Position numbers and translations under genes: made by a program
Assembly (NCBI GenBank): GCA_029246605.1
Contig: JAQWMV010000108.1
Location: 1 to 54,362, forward strand
From: Pseudomonadales bacterium
GTDB lineage: Bacteria > Pseudomonadota > Gammaproteobacteria > Pseudomonadales > Azotimanducaceae
Direction of reading: 5' to 3'
DNA: 54,362 nucleotides
In this document: piece after piece, positions 2,104-20,558 of the stretch
How the letters are laid out: each line of letters opens with the position of its first letter
How positions within the stretch are numbered: position 1 is the first letter of the stretch
The notes under the pieces: generated by a model
The model's database searches: none
What the model was told of the DNA's origin: nothing
What the model saw: the letters and a program-made list of their open reading frames with translations, nothing else

Positions 2104-3303
2104 ATGGACAGCAATCGACTCATTCAGTTTATCTATCGCCCTCGAGTCGCAGTATATCTGGGCGTGGCGGTAACACTGCTGGTTTCCAACACCATTGTCG
2201 CTGAAACAGTTCGCTGGCTTCTGATTATTGCTGTCGTCGTTTTTCCTCATGTCGCCTTTCGGCTGAGTCGTCGCTATTTCAATCATGCGAAAGGTGCCAG
2301 ATTCTCGATGCTGGCTGATGGCTTTTTGGTTGGGGTTCTTATTGTTGCCATGAACTTTAACCTTTTAGTGAGTGTATGCATGGTCACTTGCCTTGTGATG
2401 GGCACATTACTCATTTGTCCTCCGGTAATGCTGCTAGTGAATCTTGCGATCGTTGGTGGGATCTGTGCCGCTTTCTTTACCCCCGAACACGCGGTCGTGG
2501 GTTCCTGGATCCAAGAAGCCATCAGCGTTTTCGTTTTACCGGGGTTCAACGGATTGGTGGTCTTCTTGTGCTTTCGTTACACATCTACGCTGGTGGATGT
2601 GCAGCCATCGGCTGGCAAGCAACATGCGTTGCTTAAGCACCGAATACGACCTTACGTTTCTGACCAGGTACTGTTTTCGATCACCGAGGATCAGGCTATT
2701 GCCAGCAGTCGTAAGCACCTGACAGTATTTTTTTCTGACATAGAGGGCGTCACCCGTCTAATGGACCAACTGAATGAAAATACCATTACACGCTTGCTCA
2801 ACGAATACCTGAATGAAATGTCAAAGATAGCACGTCGGTATGGTGGAACTGTCGATAAGTACATGGGCGATGGTGTGATGGTGCTATTCGGACAGTCGAA
2901 GGATGTCAGCCATGATGCAATCAGTTGTGTAAAGATGGCGCTGGCCATGCGGGATAAGTTAGCTGAGCTGGCATTAAGTTGGCAGTGCTTTGGGCGCGAT
3001 TTACATATCCGTATTGGAATTCATTCGGGATTCTGCACTGTGGGTAAATTTTGATCAGCCGCACGTATGGAGTATACGGCTATTGGCAGTACAGTGAATC
3101 GGGCCAGCCGACTTGAAGGGTTTGCCGATACAGACGAGATTCTGATCTCAAGTGCTACCTATAAACTGGTACTGGCAGAAATAATCTGCCACGCAAAACC
3201 ACCGGTCAGAGTCAAAGGCATAGACACGCCCATAGATATATATTCAGTCAATTCAACAAAGCCAAAGCAGATTCCACTAGGTAACGTCAGACTACTTAAT
3301 TAA
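2104..3303 (+). pseudogene. Class III adenylate cyclase with N-terminal membrane domain, interrupted by an in-frame TGA at 3052-3054
   Basis: ORFs 2104..3054 and 3067..3303 are in the same frame; together they read ...FFSDIEGVTRL...GGTVDKYMGDGVMVLFG...GIHSGFCTVGKF*SAARMEYTAIGSTVNRASRLEG..., a CyaB-like cyclase with one stop codon. Confidence 0.85.
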
Positions 3304-3336
3304 CACAAGGTATAATGAGGTTTTTTTGGACGAAAA

Positions 3337-4371
3337 ATGCAATCGCAACTTGAAAACTCCTTGTTCCTGAAAGCGTGCAGAGGAGAACCTACAGAGAGGA
3401 CTCCAATTTGGCTTTACCGACAAGCGGGTCGATATATGCCGGAGTATCATGCTGTTAAAGGTAATACACCGAGCCTTGATTTTTTTAAGACCCCGACATT
3501 GGCGGCAAAGGTTACCTGTGATGCGCAGCGAATTCTTGGTGTAGATGCAGCGATCCTATTTGCTGATTTGCTACCTATACTTGAACCTATGGGGTTGGAT
3601 TTGGACTACCTGCCGGGTATTGGTCCTAATATCAGCAACCCAGTCCGTGATCATGGTGATATTGATAACCTGAAAGTTACCCGCGCTGCAGACACCTTAG
3701 CCTATATTAGCGAGACTATTAGTCTTGCGAGACAGGAGTTACCGGACGACATTCCTCTCATTGGCTTTGCTGGTGCGCCCTTTACGTTGGCGTCATATGC
3801 GATAGAAGGTAAGGGATCAAGGAACTACGTTCATGTTAAGAAGCTCATGTATTCAGATCCTGAGGCATGGCGGACAGTGATGGAGAAAGTGACGGATGTT
3901 GTTATCGACTATCTAGATCTTCAAATTGCGTCGGGGGTTCAGGCGGTGCAGCTCTTTGACAGTTGGGTAGGGTGTCTTACTCCCGAGGCGTATCGACATT
4001 TTGTTTTGCCGCATAGTAAGCGCTTGATACAGGCTGTGTCGGGTAAAGTACCGGTGATTCACTTTGGCACAGGTAACCCGGCATTACTGCCGCTAATGAA
4101 TGAGGCAGGCGCAGATGTGCTGGGAATAGATTGGCGAGCACCTTTAATGGATAGTTGGCGCGCTCTAGGTACCAAAGCGGTTCAGGGTAATCTTGATCCA
4201 ATTATTCTATGTGCCGAAGAAAGTGTAGTGATACGGGAAGCAACCGCGTTGCTCGATAGCGTAGGTGGTAGACCTGGCCATATATTTAACCTTGGTCACG
4301 GCATTATTCCGGATGTACCCGTAGAAAATGTAAAGACGCTGGTGAGGACGGTACAGGAGTATCAGTGTTAG
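3337..4371 (+). CDS. hemE: Uroporphyrinogen decarboxylase
   Basis: 344 aa; TPIWLYRQAGRYMPEY, GFAGAPFTLASYAIEG, FNLGHGIIPDVPVENV. Confidence 0.97.
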   Translation: MQSQLENSLFLKACRGEPTERTPIWLYRQAGRYMPEYHAVKGNTPSLDFFKTPTLAAKVTCDAQRILGVDAAILFADLLPILEPMGLDLDYLPGIGPNISNPVRDHGDIDNLKVTRAADTLAYISETISLARQELPDDIPLIGFAGAPFTLASYAIEGKGSRNYVHVKKLMYSDPEAWRTVMEKVTDVVIDYLDLQIASGVQAVQLFDSWVGCLTPEAYRHFVLPHSKRLIQAVSGKVPVIHFGTGNPALLPLMNEAGADVLGIDWRAPLMDSWRALGTKAVQGNLDPIILCAEESVVIREATALLDSVGGRPGHIFNLGHGIIPDVPVENVKTLVRTVQEYQC

Positions 4372-4374
4372 CTT

Positions 4375-5658
4375 TTACAGAGCCTTTTTCAGATACTTCG
4401 AATTTCTCTGAAAATTGTAGAAACGATCTTCAGGCAATGTGTCGATAGGTAGTTCTTCAAAGCCTCGTTCGATAAACCAATGTACAGCCTGCGTGGTGAG
4501 TACGAACAAAGATTTAAGGCCCAAGTCTCGAGCGCTGGACTCGATACTCTGCAGCAGTAACTCACCACGATTGTCATTTCGGTATTCTGGATGCGTCGCG
4601 AGGCACGCGAGCTCTCCCTGCGATTGAAATGGATACAACGCCGCACATGCGACGATCATGCCGTCGCGTTCTATGATCCTGAAGTGGTCCAATTCTGATT
4701 CAATAAGCTCTCTTGAACGTTTTACTAGGATGCCCTCATGTTCAAGTGGACTAATCAGTTCGATGATGCCGGCAACGTCGTCCGGTCTTGCGGTCCTCAG
4801 TTTTTCATAACTTTCTTGAATAATCTGTGTGCCGGAACCATCACGGGTGAACAATTCTTCCAGTAATGCACCATCACTTTTGTAGTTGATTACATGGCAT
4901 CGCTTTACCCCGCTAAGACATGCAGCGATAGAAAGTTTGGCTAGATTTTGATGCTCGGGATCCTGAAAGGATAAATCATTCACCTCGGTTATTTCGTTAA
5001 TCAACACGCCATCGTGATCGCGAATACCGTCATCAGAAGAAAAATAGATAAGTTTTTCAGCTTCTAGTGTACGGGCGACGTTGTGGGCAAGCTGACGGGC
5101 ATCGAGTACAAAAGTTTCCCCCGATGGGGAATGACCAATTGGGGAAACAACAACGATTGCCTGGTGCTCAAGTTGACTGACAATGGCGGCCTTGTTAACT
5201 CTTCGCGTTGTTCCTGTATGGTGAAAGTCAGTCCCATCCATGATGCCCATGGGCTTGGCAGTGACAAAATTTCCACCAGTTACCAGCATTTGGGTATGAA
5301 TCGATGCGTGGCCCTTCGATAGACTAGCCTCGATTCGAGTTCGTGTGGTGCCGATTGGCGCCAAGATCTTAGCTAGGATTTCCGGCGTTGTAACCGGTGT
5401 GTTGCCAGACATCGGCCATTGCACGTGTTGCTCGGTGAGTGATTGAGTTATTTGCGGATCGGCACCGTGCACGATGACCAGTTTTACACCCAGGCTGTTT
5501 AGTAATGCGATATCGTTGATGAGGTTGCTGTAATTCGCATGCTCAATGGCTTCGCCACCGAGGTAAATGACGAAGGTCTTTGCCCTGTGCGCATTGATGT
5601 AGGGCGATGAATTTCTAAACCACTTGATGTGGTCGTTTTCAGTGCTCATTTCAGACAA
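4375..5658 (-). CDS. argA: Amino-acid N-acetyltransferase (N-acetylglutamate synthase)
   Basis: 427 aa; kinase-like amino-acid-binding domain followed by a C-terminal GNAT domain. Confidence 0.93.
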   Translation of the reverse strand: MSEMSTENDHIKWFRNSSPYINAHRAKTFVIYLGGEAIEHANYSNLINDIALLNSLGVKLVIVHGADPQITQSLTEQHVQWPMSGNTPVTTPEILAKILAPIGTTRTRIEASLSKGHASIHTQMLVTGGNFVTAKPMGIMDGTDFHHTGTTRRVNKAAIVSQLEHQAIVVVSPIGHSPSGETFVLDARQLAHNVARTLEAEKLIYFSSDDGIRDHDGVLINEITEVNDLSFQDPEHQNLAKLSIAACLSGVKRCHVINYKSDGALLEELFTRDGSGTQIIQESYEKLRTARPDDVAGIIELISPLEHEGILVKRSRELIESELDHFRIIERDGMIVACAALYPFQSQGELACLATHPEYRNDNRGELLLQSIESSARDLGLKSLFVLTTQAVHWFIERGFEELPIDTLPEDRFYNFQRNSKYLKKAL

Positions 5659-10226: not shown

Positions 10227-11237
10227 ATGTCTAAACAGCGTATCCTGGTTGTCAGTCCGTCCTGGATTGGTGACATGGTCATGTCTCAGACGCTCTATGC
10301 GCTATTAAAAAAACAAGATAAAGAAATTGATGTTATTGCGCCAGCTGCATCGAAACCACTGTTGTCCAGAATGCCTGAAGTCAACAGGTCTATGTTATTC
10401 GATGTTGGACATGGCGAATTACGCTATGGCTATCGTCGTCAATTTGCACGTTCGTTAAAACGGAACAACTACCAGCAGGCGATAGTGCTACCCAATTCGT
10501 TAAAGTCAGCACTTGTGCCCTTCCTTGCAGAGATTCCTGTCCGCACGGGTTTCCGCGGTGAGATGCGCTATATACTGCTGAATGACATTCGACTTTTGGA
10601 CGAAAGGCGCTTGCCTCGAATGATAGATCGTTTCATGGCGCTGGGACTGCCTGCAATGACACCCTTACCGGACCCTGAACAACCTCGGCTAACTGTGGAC
10701 GAACGCAATCAGACAGAATGCTTGCGTCAACTCGGACTCGATACGAATGCAACAATACTTGGTCTATGCCCTGGCGCGGAATTTGGCGATGCCAAACGCT
10801 GGCCAGTAAGCAAATTTTCTGAAGTAGCTGAGGCCGCTATTGAGAAAGGCATGCAGGTGTGGATATTCGGCTCTGCAGCGGATCGAAGTATTAGCGACAA
10901 GATCATTGAACAGATACCACCCGTGATGCGGGAACATTGCCAAAACCTGGCGGGAAGAACTACGCTGCTTGACGCAATCGATCTCTTAAGCCTCTGCGGT
11001 GAAGTAGTAACCAACGACTCAGGGCTGATGCATGTCGCCGCTGCCGTCGGCCGTAAAACGGTTGTGCTCTATGGCTCAACATCACCGAATTTTACTCCTC
11101 CACTGACCGAAAAGGCAGTCATTGTTAGTGAAGATATTTCTTGTAGCCCTTGTTTTAAAAGGACTTGCCCCCTTGGCCACAAGAATTGCCTGAATTTGCT
11201 GGATGCCAGTCAGGTGATATCTCGGCTGCAGGAATAG
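10227..11237 (+). CDS. waaF: ADP-heptose:LPS heptosyltransferase II
   Basis: 336 aa GT9; ILVVSPSWIGDMVMSQTLY, GLCPGAEFGDAKRWP, NDSGLMHVAAA. Confidence 0.95.
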   Translation: MSKQRILVVSPSWIGDMVMSQTLYALLKKQDKEIDVIAPAASKPLLSRMPEVNRSMLFDVGHGELRYGYRRQFARSLKRNNYQQAIVLPNSLKSALVPFLAEIPVRTGFRGEMRYILLNDIRLLDERRLPRMIDRFMALGLPAMTPLPDPEQPRLTVDERNQTECLRQLGLDTNATILGLCPGAEFGDAKRWPVSKFSEVAEAAIEKGMQVWIFGSAADRSISDKIIEQIPPVMREHCQNLAGRTTLLDAIDLLSLCGEVVTNDSGLMHVAAAVGRKTVVLYGSTSPNFTPPLTEKAVIVSEDISCSPCFKRTCPLGHKNCLNLLDASQVISRLQE

Positions 11238-12253
11238 TGAAAATACTCATCATTAAGATGTCATCTCTGGGTGATGTGATTCATACATTACCTGCAATAT
11301 CTGATATTTGTGCACAGATCGAAGATGTACAAATTGACTGGGTTGTTGAAGAAGCTTTTGCAGACATCCCGGCGCTTCATCCCGGCGTAAAGAATGTCCT
11401 GCCGATTGCATTGCGTCGTTGGCGACACAAGCCAATCACGGCTATCGCTAGTAAAGAGATTCGAACTTTTTTAAAGGCGCTACATCACGAGACCTATGAT
11501 CTCGTGCTAGACGCTCAGGGATTGATTAAGAGTGCGCTGTTTGCAAGATTGAGCCATGGTAGAACCGTTGGTTTAGATTGGAACTCAAGTCGGGAAAGTC
11601 TCGCGAGTTTATTTTACGACCAGCGCATCAGTATAGCGCGAGAGCAACATGCAGTTGATCGGACGAGGCAATTGGCTGCGCTGACCTTTGACTATACATT
11701 GAGCGGTGCTGCTAATTTTGGGTTTGCATTGGCGCAAATTCAAACACCAGCAATTATGTTGTTGCATGGCACCACGTGGCAGTCAAAACACTGGCCTGAG
11801 GAGCAGTGGCGGGCGCTCGCCGTAATTATTCGAAATGCTGGATATAAATTGGTGATACCCGCAGGTAACCCGGTGGAGAGTGCTCGAGCGTCTCGGATTG
11901 CGATTGATGAAACAGAGCTGCTTCCGCCAACGTCTCTCGGTGAACTTGTCAGGAATATGATGGCTTGTAGTGGCGTAGTCTCAGTTGATACCGGACTTGG
12001 TCACCTGGCCGGGGCGCTTGGATTGCCAACGGTCGGGATATATGGATCAACTGATCCGATACTTACTGGTGTTCGCGGGGTAAACGCAAAAACGTTAGCA
12101 AGCGATCACTTACCCTGTATCCCCTGTAAAAAAAGACATTGTAAGTTATCTCAGGACGACTGTAAAATCTATCCACCTTGCTTAGCAGAAACAACGCCGG
12201 AAACCACGTGGATAGCGCTACAGTCTCAAATCAGGTTAGCATCCGGAAGCTGA
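11237..12253 (+). CDS. waaC: LPS heptosyltransferase I
   Basis: Likely GTG start overlapping the waaF stop; VKILIIKMSSLGDVIHTLPA, VVEEAFADIPALHPGV, DTGLGHLAGALG. Confidence 0.95.
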   Translation: MKILIIKMSSLGDVIHTLPAISDICAQIEDVQIDWVVEEAFADIPALHPGVKNVLPIALRRWRHKPITAIASKEIRTFLKALHHETYDLVLDAQGLIKSALFARLSHGRTVGLDWNSSRESLASLFYDQRISIAREQHAVDRTRQLAALTFDYTLSGAANFGFALAQIQTPAIMLLHGTTWQSKHWPEEQWRALAVIIRNAGYKLVIPAGNPVESARASRIAIDETELLPPTSLGELVRNMMACSGVVSVDTGLGHLAGALGLPTVGIYGSTDPILTGVRGVNAKTLASDHLPCIPCKKRHCKLSQDDCKIYPPCLAETTPETTWIALQSQIRLASGS

Positions 12254-14568
12254 AACTAGCGTTCTGTCTCTATAAGTATTTCCCTCAGGGTGGCTTACAA
12301 CTTGATTTTTTGCATATCGCAAAAGACTGTCAACGTCGTGGTCATGAGATCCGTGTATATACCCTGGAGTGGGTAGGCGATATTCCCGATGGCTTTGAAG
12401 TCATCATTGTCCCGGTTTATGCCTTAACCAATCACACCAGAAAGGAGCGCTTTAGTACCTGGGTTAATGCGGCGTTGCATCGTGATCCCGTCGATGGCGT
12501 TATTGGCATCAATAAAATGCCAGGTCTTGATGTCTACTACGCAGCGGACTCGTGCTATGAAGAAAAAATGCAGACCCAGCGGGGTTGGTTAGACCGTCAG
12601 TTTCCCCGATACCACCATTTTGCGAGTTATGAGGATGCTGTTTTCGGTAAAGATAGTTTGACAGAAATACTCATGATATCTGATGTGCAACGTCCGTTTT
12701 TTGAAAAGCATTACGGGACTTCAAGAGACCGCATGCATTTTCTACCGCCAGGCATCTCCAGTGACCGAATTGCGCCAGAGAACGTTGATGAGATTCGCAG
12801 CCAAATGCGGGCCGAACTGGGAGTCGCCGATGATGAGTATATGCTGCTGACCGTGGGCTCCGGCTTTATCAAAAAAGGGGTTAGCCGAGCATTGCATGCG
12901 CAACGATCGTTACCGGTGGAGATACGGGAAAAAACCAAATATTTCATCGTCGGTAGAGACACGCCCGCACCTTTTAACCGGCTAATTTTCAGGTTGGGTT
13001 TACGCAAGCACGTGACGATTTTGTCAGAGGGTCGCGATCCCAACGAGATTCCGAGATTTCTTTTTGCTGCAGATCTTCTAATACATCCGGCAACCGATGA
13101 AAGTGCGGGGATCATCCTCATAGAGGCGGTCGTGGCAGGATTGTCCGTGCTTGCTACGGATAACTGTGGCTATGGCCACTATGTAGAAGAAGCAGAGGTA
13201 GGCAGCCTGGTTAAAAGTCCTTTTGAGCAAAAGGCCCTAAATAAGAAACTGTTGGGAATGCTGCAGACTGATAGAAGACTCGAGTGTCTTGAGAATGGCC
13301 GTCGCTTCGCAAAACAAGCCAATATTTATTCTCTACATCAGGAAGCGTCTTATCATATAGAGCGTGTAATAACTGAACGATCTACTCGGATAGGCTATGA
13401 GGGGACGCTCGCGTTTACGCTATATAAGTATATGACCTTTGGTGGATTACAGCTGGACTTCATTCGTATTGCCACTGAATGTCAGCGGCGAGGCTATAAG
13501 ATTAGAGTGTATACGGTTTCCTGGGAAGGTCCGGTACCGCTTGATTTTGATGTGGTGATAGTGCCCGTAAAGTCCATGACAAACCACAGCCGTAATAAGA
13601 AATTTACCGATTGGGTTGGCAATCACCTTAAAGAACACCCTGTTAACAGTGTCGTGGGCTTTAATAAGATGCCGGGTCTCAATATCTACTATGCTGCGGA
13701 TACCTGCTATGCAGAAAAAATGCAAACACAGCGTCGTTGGTATCATCGTCTATTACCCAGACACCATCATTTTGCGAAATACGAGCAGGCTGTATTTGAC
13801 CGATCATCCGAGACAGAGATTTTGATGATCTCCGAGGTTCAAAAGCCTCTGTTTCTTAAGTATTACGGGACAAAAGATGAGCGCTTCCACCTGTTGCCGC
13901 CCGGCATTCTAAGGGACAGGCGTGCTCCACCAAATGCGGTCGATATTCGTGAAGAGCTGCGGCAGGAATTTTCCATTTCAGATAACGATTTTTTGCTGCT
14001 GATGGTAGGTTCCGGTTTTATTACCAAGGGCCTTGATCGTATCTTACTGGGCTTGGCCTCGTTGCCTGACGAAGTCCGTAGCAGAACCCGCCTAATCGCA
14101 ATTGGTCAGGATTCGCCAAAGAATTTTGAACGCATGGCCGATCGATTAGGTATTTCAGAAAGGGTTCAGATCCTAAAAGGCCGAGACGATATTACGCGAT
14201 TTCTATTGGGTGCTGATTTGCTTGTTCATCCTGCCTATCTGGAAAATACGGGAACTGTGTTGCTGGAGGCTATCGTTGCTGGATTGCCGGTATTGGCGAC
14301 GGACGTTTGTGGCTATGCACATTATATTAAAGAAGCGGGCGCAGGGAGATTGGTGCCATCTCCCTACGAGCAAAAAGTGTTCAATCAGCAGCTTCTCGGA
14401 TTAATAACTGAACCCGAACTCAAGGCGCTCCAGCAAAAGGGTCTTGCTTTTGCTAGGCATGCTGACATTTACAGTATGCCGCAGAGAGCAGCGGACATCA
14501 TTTGCCAGTATGCGCAGCAAAGGCGTTCAGAGTCTGCAGGCAGCCAGCTCCACGTAATTGACAACTGA
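12178..14568 (+). CDS. Tandem double WaaG-like LPS glucosyltransferase (two complete GT4 units in one ORF; start may be GTG 12208)
   Basis: 796 aa; KYFPQGGLQLDF...FNKMPGL-type...EX7E...CGYGHYV in copy 1 repeated as KYMTFGGLQLDF...FNKMPGLNIYYAADTCYAEK...EX7E...CGYAHYI in copy 2. Confidence 0.92.
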   Translation: MLSRNNAGNHVDSATVSNQVSIRKLKLAFCLYKYFPQGGLQLDFLHIAKDCQRRGHEIRVYTLEWVGDIPDGFEVIIVPVYALTNHTRKERFSTWVNAALHRDPVDGVIGINKMPGLDVYYAADSCYEEKMQTQRGWLDRQFPRYHHFASYEDAVFGKDSLTEILMISDVQRPFFEKHYGTSRDRMHFLPPGISSDRIAPENVDEIRSQMRAELGVADDEYMLLTVGSGFIKKGVSRALHAQRSLPVEIREKTKYFIVGRDTPAPFNRLIFRLGLRKHVTILSEGRDPNEIPRFLFAADLLIHPATDESAGIILIEAVVAGLSVLATDNCGYGHYVEEAEVGSLVKSPFEQKALNKKLLGMLQTDRRLECLENGRRFAKQANIYSLHQEASYHIERVITERSTRIGYEGTLAFTLYKYMTFGGLQLDFIRIATECQRRGYKIRVYTVSWEGPVPLDFDVVIVPVKSMTNHSRNKKFTDWVGNHLKEHPVNSVVGFNKMPGLNIYYAADTCYAEKMQTQRRWYHRLLPRHHHFAKYEQAVFDRSSETEILMISEVQKPLFLKYYGTKDERFHLLPPGILRDRRAPPNAVDIREELRQEFSISDNDFLLLMVGSGFITKGLDRILLGLASLPDEVRSRTRLIAIGQDSPKNFERMADRLGISERVQILKGRDDITRFLLGADLLVHPAYLENTGTVLLEAIVAGLPVLATDVCGYAHYIKEAGAGRLVPSPYEQKVFNQQLLGLITEPELKALQQKGLAFARHADIYSMPQRAADIICQYAQQRRSESAGSQLHVIDN

Positions 14569-15377
14569 TGGCTAAGCGTTTCGTTGATCAACGGTTTCAC
14601 CATCTATTTGACGGCGATTTTAAACAGGTTTCAGAATTCGAGGGGGAGATATTCAGGGAACTGGAGAACCGCAGGACGGTACGTGTTGAGAAACAGGGTG
14701 AACGATTTTTCGCGAAGACACACTTTGGTGTTGGCTGGCGAGAAATAGTAAAGAATCTGTGCCAGCTACGACTTCCTGTCTTAGGTGCGGAAAATGAGTT
14801 CAAGGCACTCAATGAGCTTCGTCGTTTGGGCATTGATTCTCTAACACCGGTCTTTTACTACAGCGCAGGTTTTAATCCAGCTAGGAGGAAGTCCTGTATC
14901 GTGACCAAAGCGCTTGAAAATACCAAGAGTATTGAAGAGTTATTGATCGAAGATGGAATTTCGGTTGCAATGAAACGAACGTTGATTCCTCGGCTTGCTG
15001 AGATCGCGCGTGTGCTACACAGCAATGGAATCAACCATCGTGATTTTTATGTTTGCCATTTTTTATTGGATATGACGAGGTCAGATCCCAGACCTTTTCT
15101 TATTGACCTGCATAGAGCACAGATTCGTAATCGAACACCTCAGCGTTGGCGAGTAAAAGATATTGGTGGGCTTTTTTTCTCCTGCTTCGACTATAACAAC
15201 GTCACGCATCGAGACGTGTATCGTTTTATGGCAGGTTATTCCGGCAAGACCCTCAGAGAGACTTTGCGGGATGATGCTTCGTTTTGGCATCAAGTTTTTG
15301 AGCGAGCCCAAAAGTTATATTTCCAGGACAATTGCGAATTGCCCAGATGGGTGGCACACATGTGGACTGCGCCTTGA
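14568..15377 (+). CDS. waaP: LPS core heptose(I) kinase
   Basis: 269 aa; FAKTHFGVGWREI, NGINHRDFYVCHFLLD, FLIDLHRAQIR. Confidence 0.93.
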   Translation: MAKRFVDQRFHHLFDGDFKQVSEFEGEIFRELENRRTVRVEKQGERFFAKTHFGVGWREIVKNLCQLRLPVLGAENEFKALNELRRLGIDSLTPVFYYSAGFNPARRKSCIVTKALENTKSIEELLIEDGISVAMKRTLIPRLAEIARVLHSNGINHRDFYVCHFLLDMTRSDPRPFLIDLHRAQIRNRTPQRWRVKDIGGLFFSCFDYNNVTHRDVYRFMAGYSGKTLRETLRDDASFWHQVFERAQKLYFQDNCELPRWVAHMWTAP

Positions 15378-16084: not shown

Positions 16085-17551
16085 TTGAGCTTGGAATTAT
16101 TGGATGTAAATTTTATGATAAATGCCGGTAGAAATATCGAGACGCCTTTTCTGTTGAGAGTTTCGAAGCCGGATTGTGGCGCATCAGATATTGAATTTGT
16201 CCGTATCCTGCGTTTGCTGCCGGGAAAACGGATTGTTGCTCTGGCTAAAGATCAGGGAAGATCCATTCTGGTCAAGACTTACCTCGGTAGGAACGCTACC
16301 AGGAATGCGGCGCGGGAGGTGTCTGGTATAAAATTGATCGAGCAGGCTGGCGTTCGTACCGCCGGGCTTCTCTGGCAGGCCTCGTTGCCGGGCGACGGGC
16401 AGTTGCTGGCTTTTGAGTTTTTACCGAACGCGATTGGCTTGTCTGAACAGCTCAAGAAGTGTGAAAAGCAAAGAACAGAAATCCTAACCAGCGCAATGCA
16501 GATCATGTCGCATTTACATAGTCATGGCGTGATTCAAAAAGATATTCATCTGGCGAATTTCCTTTTGTCACAGGGCGAAATTCACACTATTGATGGTGGG
16601 GGTATTTACAGTAAGACTACTGAACCACTATCGGAACAGCCAAGCATTGATAACCTTGCCCTATTCTTTGCACAGTTCTTGGCGCGATACGATGCGCTGG
16701 TTCCAGAAGTTTTTTCGGTCTATGAAGAGGCCCGTGGATGGAGTCTGGACGAGGGTCGCCTTGGCAGATTGCAAAAGGAAATCACCAGGCATCGAGAACT
16801 AAGAAAGCAAGCGTATGTAGAGAAAGCATTTAGAGACTGTACTCGCTTTGTCTGTCGTTCATCCTTTCGACGCTATATGGTCTGTGAACGGGATGCGTAT
16901 TCCGATGAGATGCAGGCTGTACTTGAAAATCCAGACAAATTTATTGCTGATGGCCACTCGTTGAAGGAAGGCCGGACATCAACGGTAACACTGGTACATT
17001 TGCAGGATAGGTCTTTAGTTATTAAACGCTACAATATCAAGGGTGTAGTGCATGGCTTAAAACGTGCTTTCAGGAAAAGTCGCGCATGGGTTTCCTGGAG
17101 TAACGCATTTCGCTTGGAGTTTTTAGATATACCAGCGTTAAAACCTATCGCACTCCTCGAAGATCGCCTTGGTCCCTTACGATCCAAGGCCTATTTTATT
17201 ACCGAGTATATAGAAGGTCCGGATGCACTACAGTGCTTAAGAGAAATGGAGAGGCCGAACGGAGAGCTGGAGGCGCTTGCCGATATTCTAACTAAACTTT
17301 CGGCGTCTCAAATTTCTCATGGAGATCTGAAGGCGACTAACTTCGTGATGTCAATCGATGGCCCCGTAGTCATCGATCTTGATGCCATGCGCGAGCATAA
17401 AAGCCAACTAACGTTTGCGAAAGCTTTTAAAAATGATCTAGAGCGATTCATGGAAAACTGGCAGGACAGCCCGACCCTCGCCAGTCGCTTCCAAGGTCTG
17501 TTATCTGACCTGAATGATCAATATGGCGCCAAGGATCAACGAAATCGTTGA
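16085..17551 (+). CDS. Two-domain LPS kinase-like protein (PA5006-like by position)
   Basis: 488 aa with two kinase-like catalytic motifs: HGVIQKDIHLANFLL...IDGG and ISHGDLKATNFVM...VIDLDAM. Confidence 0.78.
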   Translation: MSLELLDVNFMINAGRNIETPFLLRVSKPDCGASDIEFVRILRLLPGKRIVALAKDQGRSILVKTYLGRNATRNAAREVSGIKLIEQAGVRTAGLLWQASLPGDGQLLAFEFLPNAIGLSEQLKKCEKQRTEILTSAMQIMSHLHSHGVIQKDIHLANFLLSQGEIHTIDGGGIYSKTTEPLSEQPSIDNLALFFAQFLARYDALVPEVFSVYEEARGWSLDEGRLGRLQKEITRHRELRKQAYVEKAFRDCTRFVCRSSFRRYMVCERDAYSDEMQAVLENPDKFIADGHSLKEGRTSTVTLVHLQDRSLVIKRYNIKGVVHGLKRAFRKSRAWVSWSNAFRLEFLDIPALKPIALLEDRLGPLRSKAYFITEYIEGPDALQCLREMERPNGELEALADILTKLSASQISHGDLKATNFVMSIDGPVVIDLDAMREHKSQLTFAKAFKNDLERFMENWQDSPTLASRFQGLLSDLNDQYGAKDQRNR

Positions 17552-17707: not shown

Positions 17708-19447
17708 TTGTCGTTAACTGTCCTGGGGTTATCCGGTGCCCTGTCTCACGATCCATCTGCAGCCCTCTATATCGATGGTGAGCTGATAGCAGCCGCAGAA
17801 GAAGAGCGCTTCATTCGCGATAAACATGCAAAAAATCAGATGCCCTATCATGCTGCAACATTCTGTATGAATTTTGCAGGTATCTCGCCTGATGACATTG
17901 ATGTGGTTGCATTTCCGTTCGCCAAAGTAGGTTTATCATCGAAGGACCGATGGCATTTTGCGAAACGTTACTGGTATGCCCCCGATAGAGCGCTCGACGC
18001 GCTGTTCAATGGAAACCGGCATTATCGACGCAACGTAGAGCGTGTACGTGAATTGCTTGACCGCCTGGATATCGATTGGGACAAGATTGAATTTGAACCC
18101 GTGGCGCACCATCTTGCACATGCCAGCAGTGCCTATCATTTGAGCGGATTTAAAGAAAAAACTGCGATCCTGGGCATTGATGGTAAGGGAGAATATGCGA
18201 CAACATTTTTTGGTTACGGTGAACAAGGTGAGATTCACAAAATAAAAGAATTCTACGATCCTGATTCCCTTGGCCAACTTTACGCGTCGTTCACTGAGTA
18301 CCTGGGTTTTGATATGCTGGATGGTGAATACAAGGTGATGGGGATGGCACCCTATGGCGATGCATCGCGTTTCGATTTATCTCCTCTAGTGTCATTTGAT
18401 GGCAGTGAAATCAGCGTTAACACGGAACTTGTAAATACTGTTGGGGTACGGCGTTATAAAGAGGACGGTAAAGGATACTATTTTAGCCAGAAATTGATTG
18501 ATTGGCTGGGCCCCCGAAGGCAGGGGGATGTGGCGGATGATCCTTACGTTCATTACGCCGCAGCGATACAAAAATTGTATGAAGACATTTCTCTGGCGCT
18601 AATTGAGCGATATCTTAAGGATATTCTCCTCGAAACCGGCAAATTAGTATTTGCCGGTGGGGGTGCTCTTAATGTGAAACTGAACCAAAAGATATTGCAG
18701 TTACCCTATGTCGATGAGTTGTTCGTGCAACCAGCGGCGAGCGATGCCGGCACAGCAGTGGGCGCAGCATCCTATGCAACTTGGAAGCGGGGTGTCATGC
18801 CGCAAAAGATGGAACATGTATACCTTGGTCCGTCTTACTCGAACGAGGAGTGTGTGAAGGCATGTGAGGAACATGAAGGTCATCCAAAATTTGAGCAAAT
18901 CGACGACGTACCAAAGAGAGTAGCAGAGCTGCTCGCGGCTGGAAATCCTGTTGCATGGTGCCAGGGAAGAATGGAATTTGGACCTCGTGCACTTGGTGGC
19001 AGAAGTATATTGGGAAGCCCGAGTTCTAAAGGCATTGCAAATAAGATAAATGAGCAAATCAAGTTCCGGGAACGCTGGCGGCCGTTTTGCCCAAGCATCT
19101 TGGATACGGTAGCGGCAGATATGATTCAAACGGATCATCCGGCACCGTTTATGACCATTACATTTGAAGTCAGTGAATCCTGGCGTGAACGAGTGCCAGA
19201 GGTAGTTCACGAGGACGGAAGTTCACGTGTGCAAATTGTTTCGAAAGCGACGAATCCAAAATATTACGCATTGCTTAAAGAGATGGAAGCGCTAACGGGC
19301 AATGGCGCTGTTTTGAACACATCACTTAATCGTCGAGGGGAACCGATGGTTTGTTCGCCAACCGATGCCCTCAACATGTTCTTCGGCTCTGATTTGGAGT
19401 TTCTTATCCTCGAAGACATTCTGGTTACCAAGCCTGATGGCCAGTAG
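17708..19447 (+). CDS. Carbamoyltransferase, NodU/CmcH family (WapO-like by position)
   Basis: 579 aa; TTG start; LGLSGALSHDPSAALYIDGELIAAAEEERF, GRMEFGPRALGGRSIL, LNTSLNRRGEPMV. Confidence 0.92.
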   Translation: MSLTVLGLSGALSHDPSAALYIDGELIAAAEEERFIRDKHAKNQMPYHAATFCMNFAGISPDDIDVVAFPFAKVGLSSKDRWHFAKRYWYAPDRALDALFNGNRHYRRNVERVRELLDRLDIDWDKIEFEPVAHHLAHASSAYHLSGFKEKTAILGIDGKGEYATTFFGYGEQGEIHKIKEFYDPDSLGQLYASFTEYLGFDMLDGEYKVMGMAPYGDASRFDLSPLVSFDGSEISVNTELVNTVGVRRYKEDGKGYYFSQKLIDWLGPRRQGDVADDPYVHYAAAIQKLYEDISLALIERYLKDILLETGKLVFAGGGALNVKLNQKILQLPYVDELFVQPAASDAGTAVGAASYATWKRGVMPQKMEHVYLGPSYSNEECVKACEEHEGHPKFEQIDDVPKRVAELLAAGNPVAWCQGRMEFGPRALGGRSILGSPSSKGIANKINEQIKFRERWRPFCPSILDTVAADMIQTDHPAPFMTITFEVSESWRERVPEVVHEDGSSRVQIVSKATNPKYYALLKEMEALTGNGAVLNTSLNRRGEPMVCSPTDALNMFFGSDLEFLILEDILVTKPDGQ

Positions 19448-20558
19448 CGAGACGGATCAACTGAAGGTGCTTCAGCTATGCCACGATTACGAAGGGCCGT
19501 TTCAACAAATTTGCCATCAATACAATAAAGCGTTTCCAGATGCTGAAGTTACAACGGTTTATTTGAGGGGAAAACCTGATGGTAACGTCACTAGGATTAC
19601 CGGGGGTGATCGAGTTATCTATCTTGAGCAGGCAGAAGGATCACTTCGGGGAATAAAATTTTCTTCAATATTCCAGCTGGCAAGAATATTCCGGGCGCAA
19701 AGGTTCAAACTGGTTATCGCACACCGATATAAAGCAATCTATCTTGCTGGCATTATGAGCTATTTGTTCTCCCGCCTTACGATATTTGGCGTCGTCCATG
19801 AACATAATGTTTTTAAGAGAATAACCCGCTCACTATTTGTGACTTTTTGGCGTAGGAATATAGAAATTATTGCTGTATCCGCGTCCGTTGCAAAGGATAT
19901 TGTTACCAGCTGCCCAGCGTTGGGTAAACAAAACCGAGTGCATGTATTGGGTCATGCCCTTAACCCGGATAGTGAGCTTTTAACGCGAGAGCTGGCGCGG
20001 CAACAACTGGACTGTGCAGGTGATCGTTTTATATTTGGCAGCGTTGGGCGTTTGATCGAGAAGAAACAATTTGATCGCTTGTTGGCTGCATTTGCCGAAG
20101 CGGACCTCGGTGAACACTGCCTGCTGGTTGTAGTCGGCAAGGGCCCTAGAGCCCGGGCCCTACAAGATCAGGCGGAAGCCTTGGGGTTATCTGGAGGGGT
20201 CGTGTTTGCCGGGCAGATTGATCAAGCGATGACGTATTTCTCAGCCTTTGACTGTTTCGTGTTTCCGGCAGGTGATGAAGAGGCCTTTGGGGTGGTTTTG
20301 CTGGAGGCGATGTTCGCAGGATTACCGATCCTTGCCAGTTCAGCACCGGGACCTGATGACGTATTGGGAGATATTGGACTTAGATACCAGGATCAAAACG
20401 ACTTCGTGCAGAAACTTCGCGATGTATATCAGCTCAATGACGATCAAAGACAGGTGTTAGGTGCGGCAGCGAAGGTCCGTTTTGAGGAGAATTTCACGAT
20501 AGAACACTTCGTTACAAAGTTTCATGCACTGCTAGCCGAAACCTACAGGCCACGCTAG
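19437..20558 (+). CDS. Glycosyltransferase family 4 (WapH-like by position)
   Basis: ATG start overlapping the upstream stop; FGSVGRLIEKKQFDRLL, EEAFGVVLLEAMFAGLPILA. Confidence 0.85.
   Translation: MASSETDQLKVLQLCHDYEGPFQQICHQYNKAFPDAEVTTVYLRGKPDGNVTRITGGDRVIYLEQAEGSLRGIKFSSIFQLARIFRAQRFKLVIAHRYKAIYLAGIMSYLFSRLTIFGVVHEHNVFKRITRSLFVTFWRRNIEIIAVSASVAKDIVTSCPALGKQNRVHVLGHALNPDSELLTRELARQQLDCAGDRFIFGSVGRLIEKKQFDRLLAAFAEADLGEHCLLVVVGKGPRARALQDQAEALGLSGGVVFAGQIDQAMTYFSAFDCFVFPAGDEEAFGVVLLEAMFAGLPILASSAPGPDDVLGDIGLRYQDQNDFVQKLRDVYQLNDDQRQVLGAAAKVRFEENFTIEHFVTKFHALLAETYRPR

Follow-up and report, generated by a model that had tools for sequence, protein, structure and literature searches.

WaaG, an alpha-1,3-hexosyltransferase of the lipopolysaccharide (LPS) core that is characterized by adding the first hexose to O3 of HepII, is a well-studied enzyme whose choice of sugar donor rests on a handful of residues. 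Five of these differ between the WaaG of P. aeruginosa (Y97, T208, N282, T283 and T285) and that of E. coli (F97, R208, A282, A283 and I285), and swapping positions 97, 208, 282, 283 and 285 turns the P. aeruginosa enzyme from UDP-GalNAc to UDP-glucose hydrolysis (PMC10579960). It has been proposed that position 208 is a key to the choice between UDP-Glc and UDP-GalNAc, and the WaaG of Hafnia alvei, which has Ser282, is listed among the likely UDP-glucose users (PMC10579960). A natural duplicate of WaaG that has split at one such position in 48 species, as described here, is an evolutionary test of this specificity model.

The window, i.e. the whole stretch of 54,362 nucleotides that was analysed, is from a marine gammaproteobacterium and carries on its forward strand a tandem WaaG-WaaG open reading frame (12178..14568, from the ORF list) whose in-frame fusion is kept in relatives. 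The product has 796 aa from the TTG at 12178 or 786 aa from the GTG at 12208, both starts being equally possible. Copy 1 (12250..13359, +) and copy 2 (13402..14502, +), both of the GT-B fold and the GT4 family, were delimited from domain limits, pocket alignment and PDB matches, and are separated by a junction of about 14 aa without a stop (13360..13401, +), seen in the sequence and in the AlphaFold2 model. Pfam Glycos_transf_1 matches this ORF twice (E = 2.6e-56, 2 stretches). In the PDB, the first match of copy 1 is P. aeruginosa WaaG (8b5s, 3.9e-131) and the next is E. coli WaaG (1.3e-103); the same order was found for copy 2 (5.5e-156 and 2.2e-116). Each domain is a WaaG and the whole protein is a tandem of two, and not the single-domain form of about 370 aa. 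A reading made earlier from the letters alone (hereafter the sequence-only reading) had already described two full copies in the 796-aa frame, and the motifs that it named are indeed present, among them the EX7E motifs ESAGIILIE of copy 1 (E281...E289; 13099..13125, +) and ENTGTVLLE of copy 2 (14242..14268, +). Its estimate by eye that about half of the residues match between the copies agrees with the 54.9% identity measured by tblastn and the 53% of the full alignment, and copy 2 is the more canonical half, as it had stated, with 64% identity to P. aeruginosa WaaG versus 55% for copy 1. The possibility of a stop between the halves overcome by read-through was rejected, as the stops counted in some relatives fall outside the fused frame.

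The AlphaFold2 model, built from a 37-sequence alignment, has two confident GT-B folds (mean pLDDT 91.9) and a pTM of 0.62, so the relative placement of the two domains is not to be trusted. In this model, the last helix of copy 1 ends at most 4 residues before the first strand of copy 2. The best Foldseek matches are P. aeruginosa WaaG (8b5s) and E. coli WaaG (2iv7), with TM-scores over the target of 0.93-0.96, and the best fold match is the P. aeruginosa enzyme (0.95); the fold is of the WaaG type according to both AlphaFold2 and Foldseek.

The tandem ORF lies in an operon with the gene order expected for WaaG, waaF-waaC-[waaG-waaG]-waaP, and the core operon of Pseudomonas also has the order waaF-waaC-waaG-waaP. 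The neighbors, all on the forward strand, are waaF for heptosyltransferase II (10227..11237; TIGR02195, E = 1.7e-135), waaC for heptosyltransferase I (11165..12253; TIGR02193, E = 2.1e-95), which overlaps the start of the tandem ORF, and waaP for the heptose(I) kinase (14568..15377; NF011703, E = 1.1e-87), whose ATG shares one base with the tandem ORF stop (TGATG). Upstream of waaF there is a putative glnE, judged from its sequence, and waaP is followed by two more kinase-like genes, a gene for a NodU-like carbamoyltransferase, a GT4 gene and an hldE-like gene. One of the proteins encoded here, with 488 aa (16085-17551, +), has two kinase-like regions, WaaY/Pkinase-like at about residues 118-173 and Kdo-kinase-like at about 297-457, being another double-headed core enzyme that adjoins the tandem WaaG. 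The presence of the NodU-like carbamoyltransferase (17708-19447, +) in a core locus would be expected if HepII carries a carbamoyl group, as it does in Pseudomonas. The source genome (2.83 Mb in 284 contigs, 97% complete) has no further WaaG, the sole other match being a weak GT4 at 19962-20378 of the window.

The sequence-only reading had called for a domain search for similar fusions, and this search found two full WaaG domains in one ORF in 48 species from 15 genera, all in the GTDB family of the window, including 7/7 genomes of its genus and one fusion on a 4.65-Mb contig (L068). WaaG was matched in 111 of the 207 genomes of this family that were searched, and the count of 48 comprises only ORFs with two full domains, L080 being left out for its degenerate second domain. 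Outside the family, no tandem WaaG was found in a non-exhaustive sample in which only matches at E <= 1e-60 were listed, made up of 392 genomes from the order (about 375 of them outside the family) and 369 from the class (about 365 of them from the rest of the class); the longer WaaG frames examined there were either WaaG-WaaP fusions, with WaaP read by eye, or chance open frames. No tandem WaaG was found in the literature in open-access sources, outside which most subscription papers lie. The WaaG family is a known one, and the tandem is a new architecture within it.

To number residues, all domains were aligned to P. aeruginosa WaaG; the five published positions were examined first and all columns were scanned afterwards. 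At positions 97/208/282/283/285, copy 2 of the window reads YTNTT, identical to P. aeruginosa at all five, and copy 1 reads YKSAI, which resembles FRAAI, the UDP-glucose pocket of E. coli, and has the Ser282 of H. alvei WaaG. Position 208 (within 12871..12876, K208-K209 equivalents, in copy 1 and 14023..14028, T208-K209 equivalents, in copy 2, both on the forward strand) is Lys in 48/48 copy-1 domains and Thr in 48/48 copy-2 domains, and position 283 is Ala in 46/48 copy-1 domains. The fusions fall into class A (genera g1, g2, g3, g9, g35, g46 and g48) and class B (g13, g15-g18, g33, g36 and g45), and across both classes only columns 208 and 360 tell the copies apart at a level of 85% or above. 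In class A, again without L080, copy 2 is YTNTT in 23/26, so that a P. aeruginosa-type pocket is present in these and in copy 2 of the window, but neither in copy 1 nor in copy 2 of class B. The latter, comprising half of the family, has YTSG[IML], which fits neither assayed pocket, and copy 1 of class B is mostly YK[NT]AM. Copy 1 of the window matches the E. coli type exactly at A283 and I285 and has a like-charged K208, the assayed glucose-type residue being Arg; it retains Tyr97, and in many relatives copy 1 retains Asn282. Copy-1-like YKAAI pockets were also observed in single WaaGs of families f31 and f41 (L108, L114, L115 and L119), which group near E. coli WaaG. K208 thus seems to have more than one origin.

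Since the split of the pocket is fixed, two different sugars are predicted, with one protein probably building two parts of the core. We therefore consider it probable that the tandem WaaG is a bifunctional LPS-core glycosyltransferase, made of fused waaG duplicates which diverged in donor specificity and add two different sugars. The donors, acceptors, linkages, order of addition and coupling of the sites given in this scheme are predictions. The gene waaG would have been duplicated in tandem and fused near the base of the family, with the donor specificities diverging afterwards. Copy 2 would keep the ancestral Pseudomonas-type pocket and most likely moves GalNAc (or GalN) from UDP-GalNAc, a role modelled on the WaaG of P. 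aeruginosa, which is thought to transfer GalNAc. For copy 1, with Lys208 and Ala283, a donor without an N-acetyl group is most likely, probably UDP-glucose. Both halves would act on the heptose-containing core after WaaC and WaaF, and copy 1 would probably perform the first obligatory addition, to HepII, because it is usually the copy kept when one is lost; copy 2 would carry out a further or branch addition. The name of two glucosyltransferases given in the sequence-only reading is thus unlikely to hold, since the copy 2 pocket is of the P. aeruginosa UDP-GalNAc type and at most copy 1 is a glucosyltransferase; its suggestion that copy 1 has a different substrate is probably right as regards the donor, given the K/T208 split. 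The source genome encodes GalE (442 bits), which has Ser at the gate position where the human enzyme has Cys. A small residue at this gate is known to admit N-acetyl sugars and would allow UDP-GalNAc production, which makes this donor plausible in the source cell. It is possible, though doubtful, that the two sites also form a single-chain assembly line, in which the WaaG heads would pass the core between donor sites and add a hexose and GalNAc in fixed order, with WaaP added to the chain in related genera.

Both domains descend from the same HepII-acting enzyme, and their most consistent difference is in the donor pocket. These two facts would also be in line with domains that act as alternatives, modifying the same heptose hydroxyl from different donors and giving a mixed core with glucose or GalNAc. 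However, a 1:1 fusion fixed over 15 genera would be an odd way to keep competing activities, and we regard this explanation as unlikely.

In other relatives, WaaG is found in further arrangements. In genus g7, three loci (L100, at 2935-5658 on the forward strand, L021 and L081) have WaaG, a truncated WaaG and WaaP in one frame, the truncated domain keeping its N-terminal half and missing the donor-binding half, and WaaG is followed by a degenerate WaaG in L080 (g7) and L099 (g50). In one genome (L078/L139) a copy-2-type domain is joined to WaaP instead. Genus g42 (L131 and L132) has two unfused WaaGs: that in the waaFC operon is of the K208 type, and that on another contig, which is beside a waaP, is of the T208 type, lacks D19 and sits on a long branch. 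In-frame WaaG-WaaP fusions were also seen in families f189, f198, f161 and f16 (L122, L123, L124, L125 and L126) and, within the family of the window, in L078 and L097; those in unrelated gammaproteobacterial families are apparently independent events.

The second WaaG domains of g7 and g50, truncated or without donor-site motifs and yet still fused, raise the question of whether one half, most likely copy 1 in the genus of the window, is a non-catalytic docking or regulatory domain. Moreover, copy 1 of the window has lost two contacts, F13 and R18, and it bears an insertion of 3 residues beside the uracil-binding loop, near R261, which is seen in copy 1 of part of the genus. Arg18 of P. aeruginosa WaaG contacts the UDP ribose (PMC10579960); the two copies of the window and those of 4 relatives have Leu here, whereas every other one read has Arg, and R18 is a secondary contact that does not by itself define the WaaG family. 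On the other hand, D19, D100, R173, K209, E281 and E289 are present in both window copies, and every copy-2 domain and nearly every copy-1 domain of the 48 full fusions retains these six core catalytic and UDP residues (in copy 1, there are one D19K and one unread residue). Purifying selection is strong on either copy (pN 0.05-0.24 versus pS 0.70-0.90), and those genomes of the family in which copy 1 occupies the waaG slot alone imply that it is active by itself. A non-catalytic half is therefore improbable, and the failing that the sequence-only reading had named as fatal to its claim, a half without a competent active site, was not found, as both halves keep the active-site residues. The drift that it ascribed to copy 1 stands in so far as this copy is less close to canonical WaaG, but none of the six core residues has been lost.

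Since both halves share fold, operon and ancestor, the duplication might have served dosage or avidity, both halves performing the same reaction; this is very unlikely, as the pocket split is fixed (K/T208 in 48/48) and tracks known specificity determinants. Finally, although the window comes from a draft genome of 284 contigs, the chance of an assembly or sequencing artefact is negligible, and the assembly duplication that could have undone the sequence-only reading is set aside, as the copies are only about 55% identical with near-saturated synonymous differences, and the fusion is common to 48 independently assembled species, the 4.65-Mb contig included.

In returning to the bifunctional enzyme with diverged donor sites, its history can be followed in phylogenies of both halves, which the sequence-only reading had suggested. 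The trees, with 112 and 48 domains, place the duplication before the genus. In the 112-domain maximum-likelihood tree, one branch (97/85) has copy 1 and nearly all single WaaGs of the family on the same side, and the copy 2 domains group with one single-domain WaaG (88/69); in the 48-domain tree, every copy from the family falls in one group (support 95.6). Duplication inside the genus of the window, the in-lineage event of the sequence-only reading, is ruled out, as a tree constrained to unite the copies of this genus is rejected (p-AU 1.6e-10). Judged from these trees, the duplication thus predates the genus and happened on the lineage that leads to the family, roughly at its base. The test of one versus two duplications for classes A and B does not separate them (p-AU 0.54 and 0.45); a single one would be favored by the fusion and the K/T split, which both classes share. 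The LQLD and EKMQTQR features, taken earlier as marks of the duplication, look like late parallel changes, since LQLD and EKM occur in both copies in only part of the genus (L001, L003 and L005); Leu18 is found in L001 and L003-L006, and in L007 and L008 each copy has LQRD and EKA. Recent gene conversion behind these features was rejected, as identity between the copies in the genus, compared with the sister species, is not raised over any 40 residues, very short tracts being below this resolution. Where a genome has a single domain left, this is almost always copy 1, at the same place in the operon. Copy-1-type singles occupy the waaF-waaC-waaG slot in L133-L136 and L138, which suggests that copy 2 was lost repeatedly, and lie elsewhere in L082 and L085.

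These data give a direct prediction of LPS core structure for a large group of gammaproteobacteria, most of which are uncultured, and the tandem WaaG shows core enzymes merging into multifunctional chains. Two glycosyltransferase modules in one protein that adds more than one sugar are found in Campylobacter jejuni LgtF and E. coli O9a WbdA, but these are not WaaG and differ in family, acceptor or linkage. The Kdo transferase WaaA/KdtA is likewise one core-LPS protein that adds more than one sugar; however, it uses one donor, CMP-Kdo, and does not consist of two whole enzymes fused in tandem (PMC6286764). E. coli WaaG/RfaG (PDB 2IV7/2IW1) has the same fold and the EX7E motif, and shares with copy 1 Ala283, Ile285 and, at 208, a basic residue with a long side chain, but it is a single domain with Arg208 instead of Lys208 and 46-48% identity. 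Among the closest known systems is P. aeruginosa WaaG (PDB 8B5Q/8B5S/8B62/8B63; PMC10579960), with the same fold, the same catalytic and UDP residues and, in copy 2, the same YTNTT pocket at 64% identity; it differs in being a single domain of about 370 aa which keeps Arg18 and has no Lys208 partner copy.
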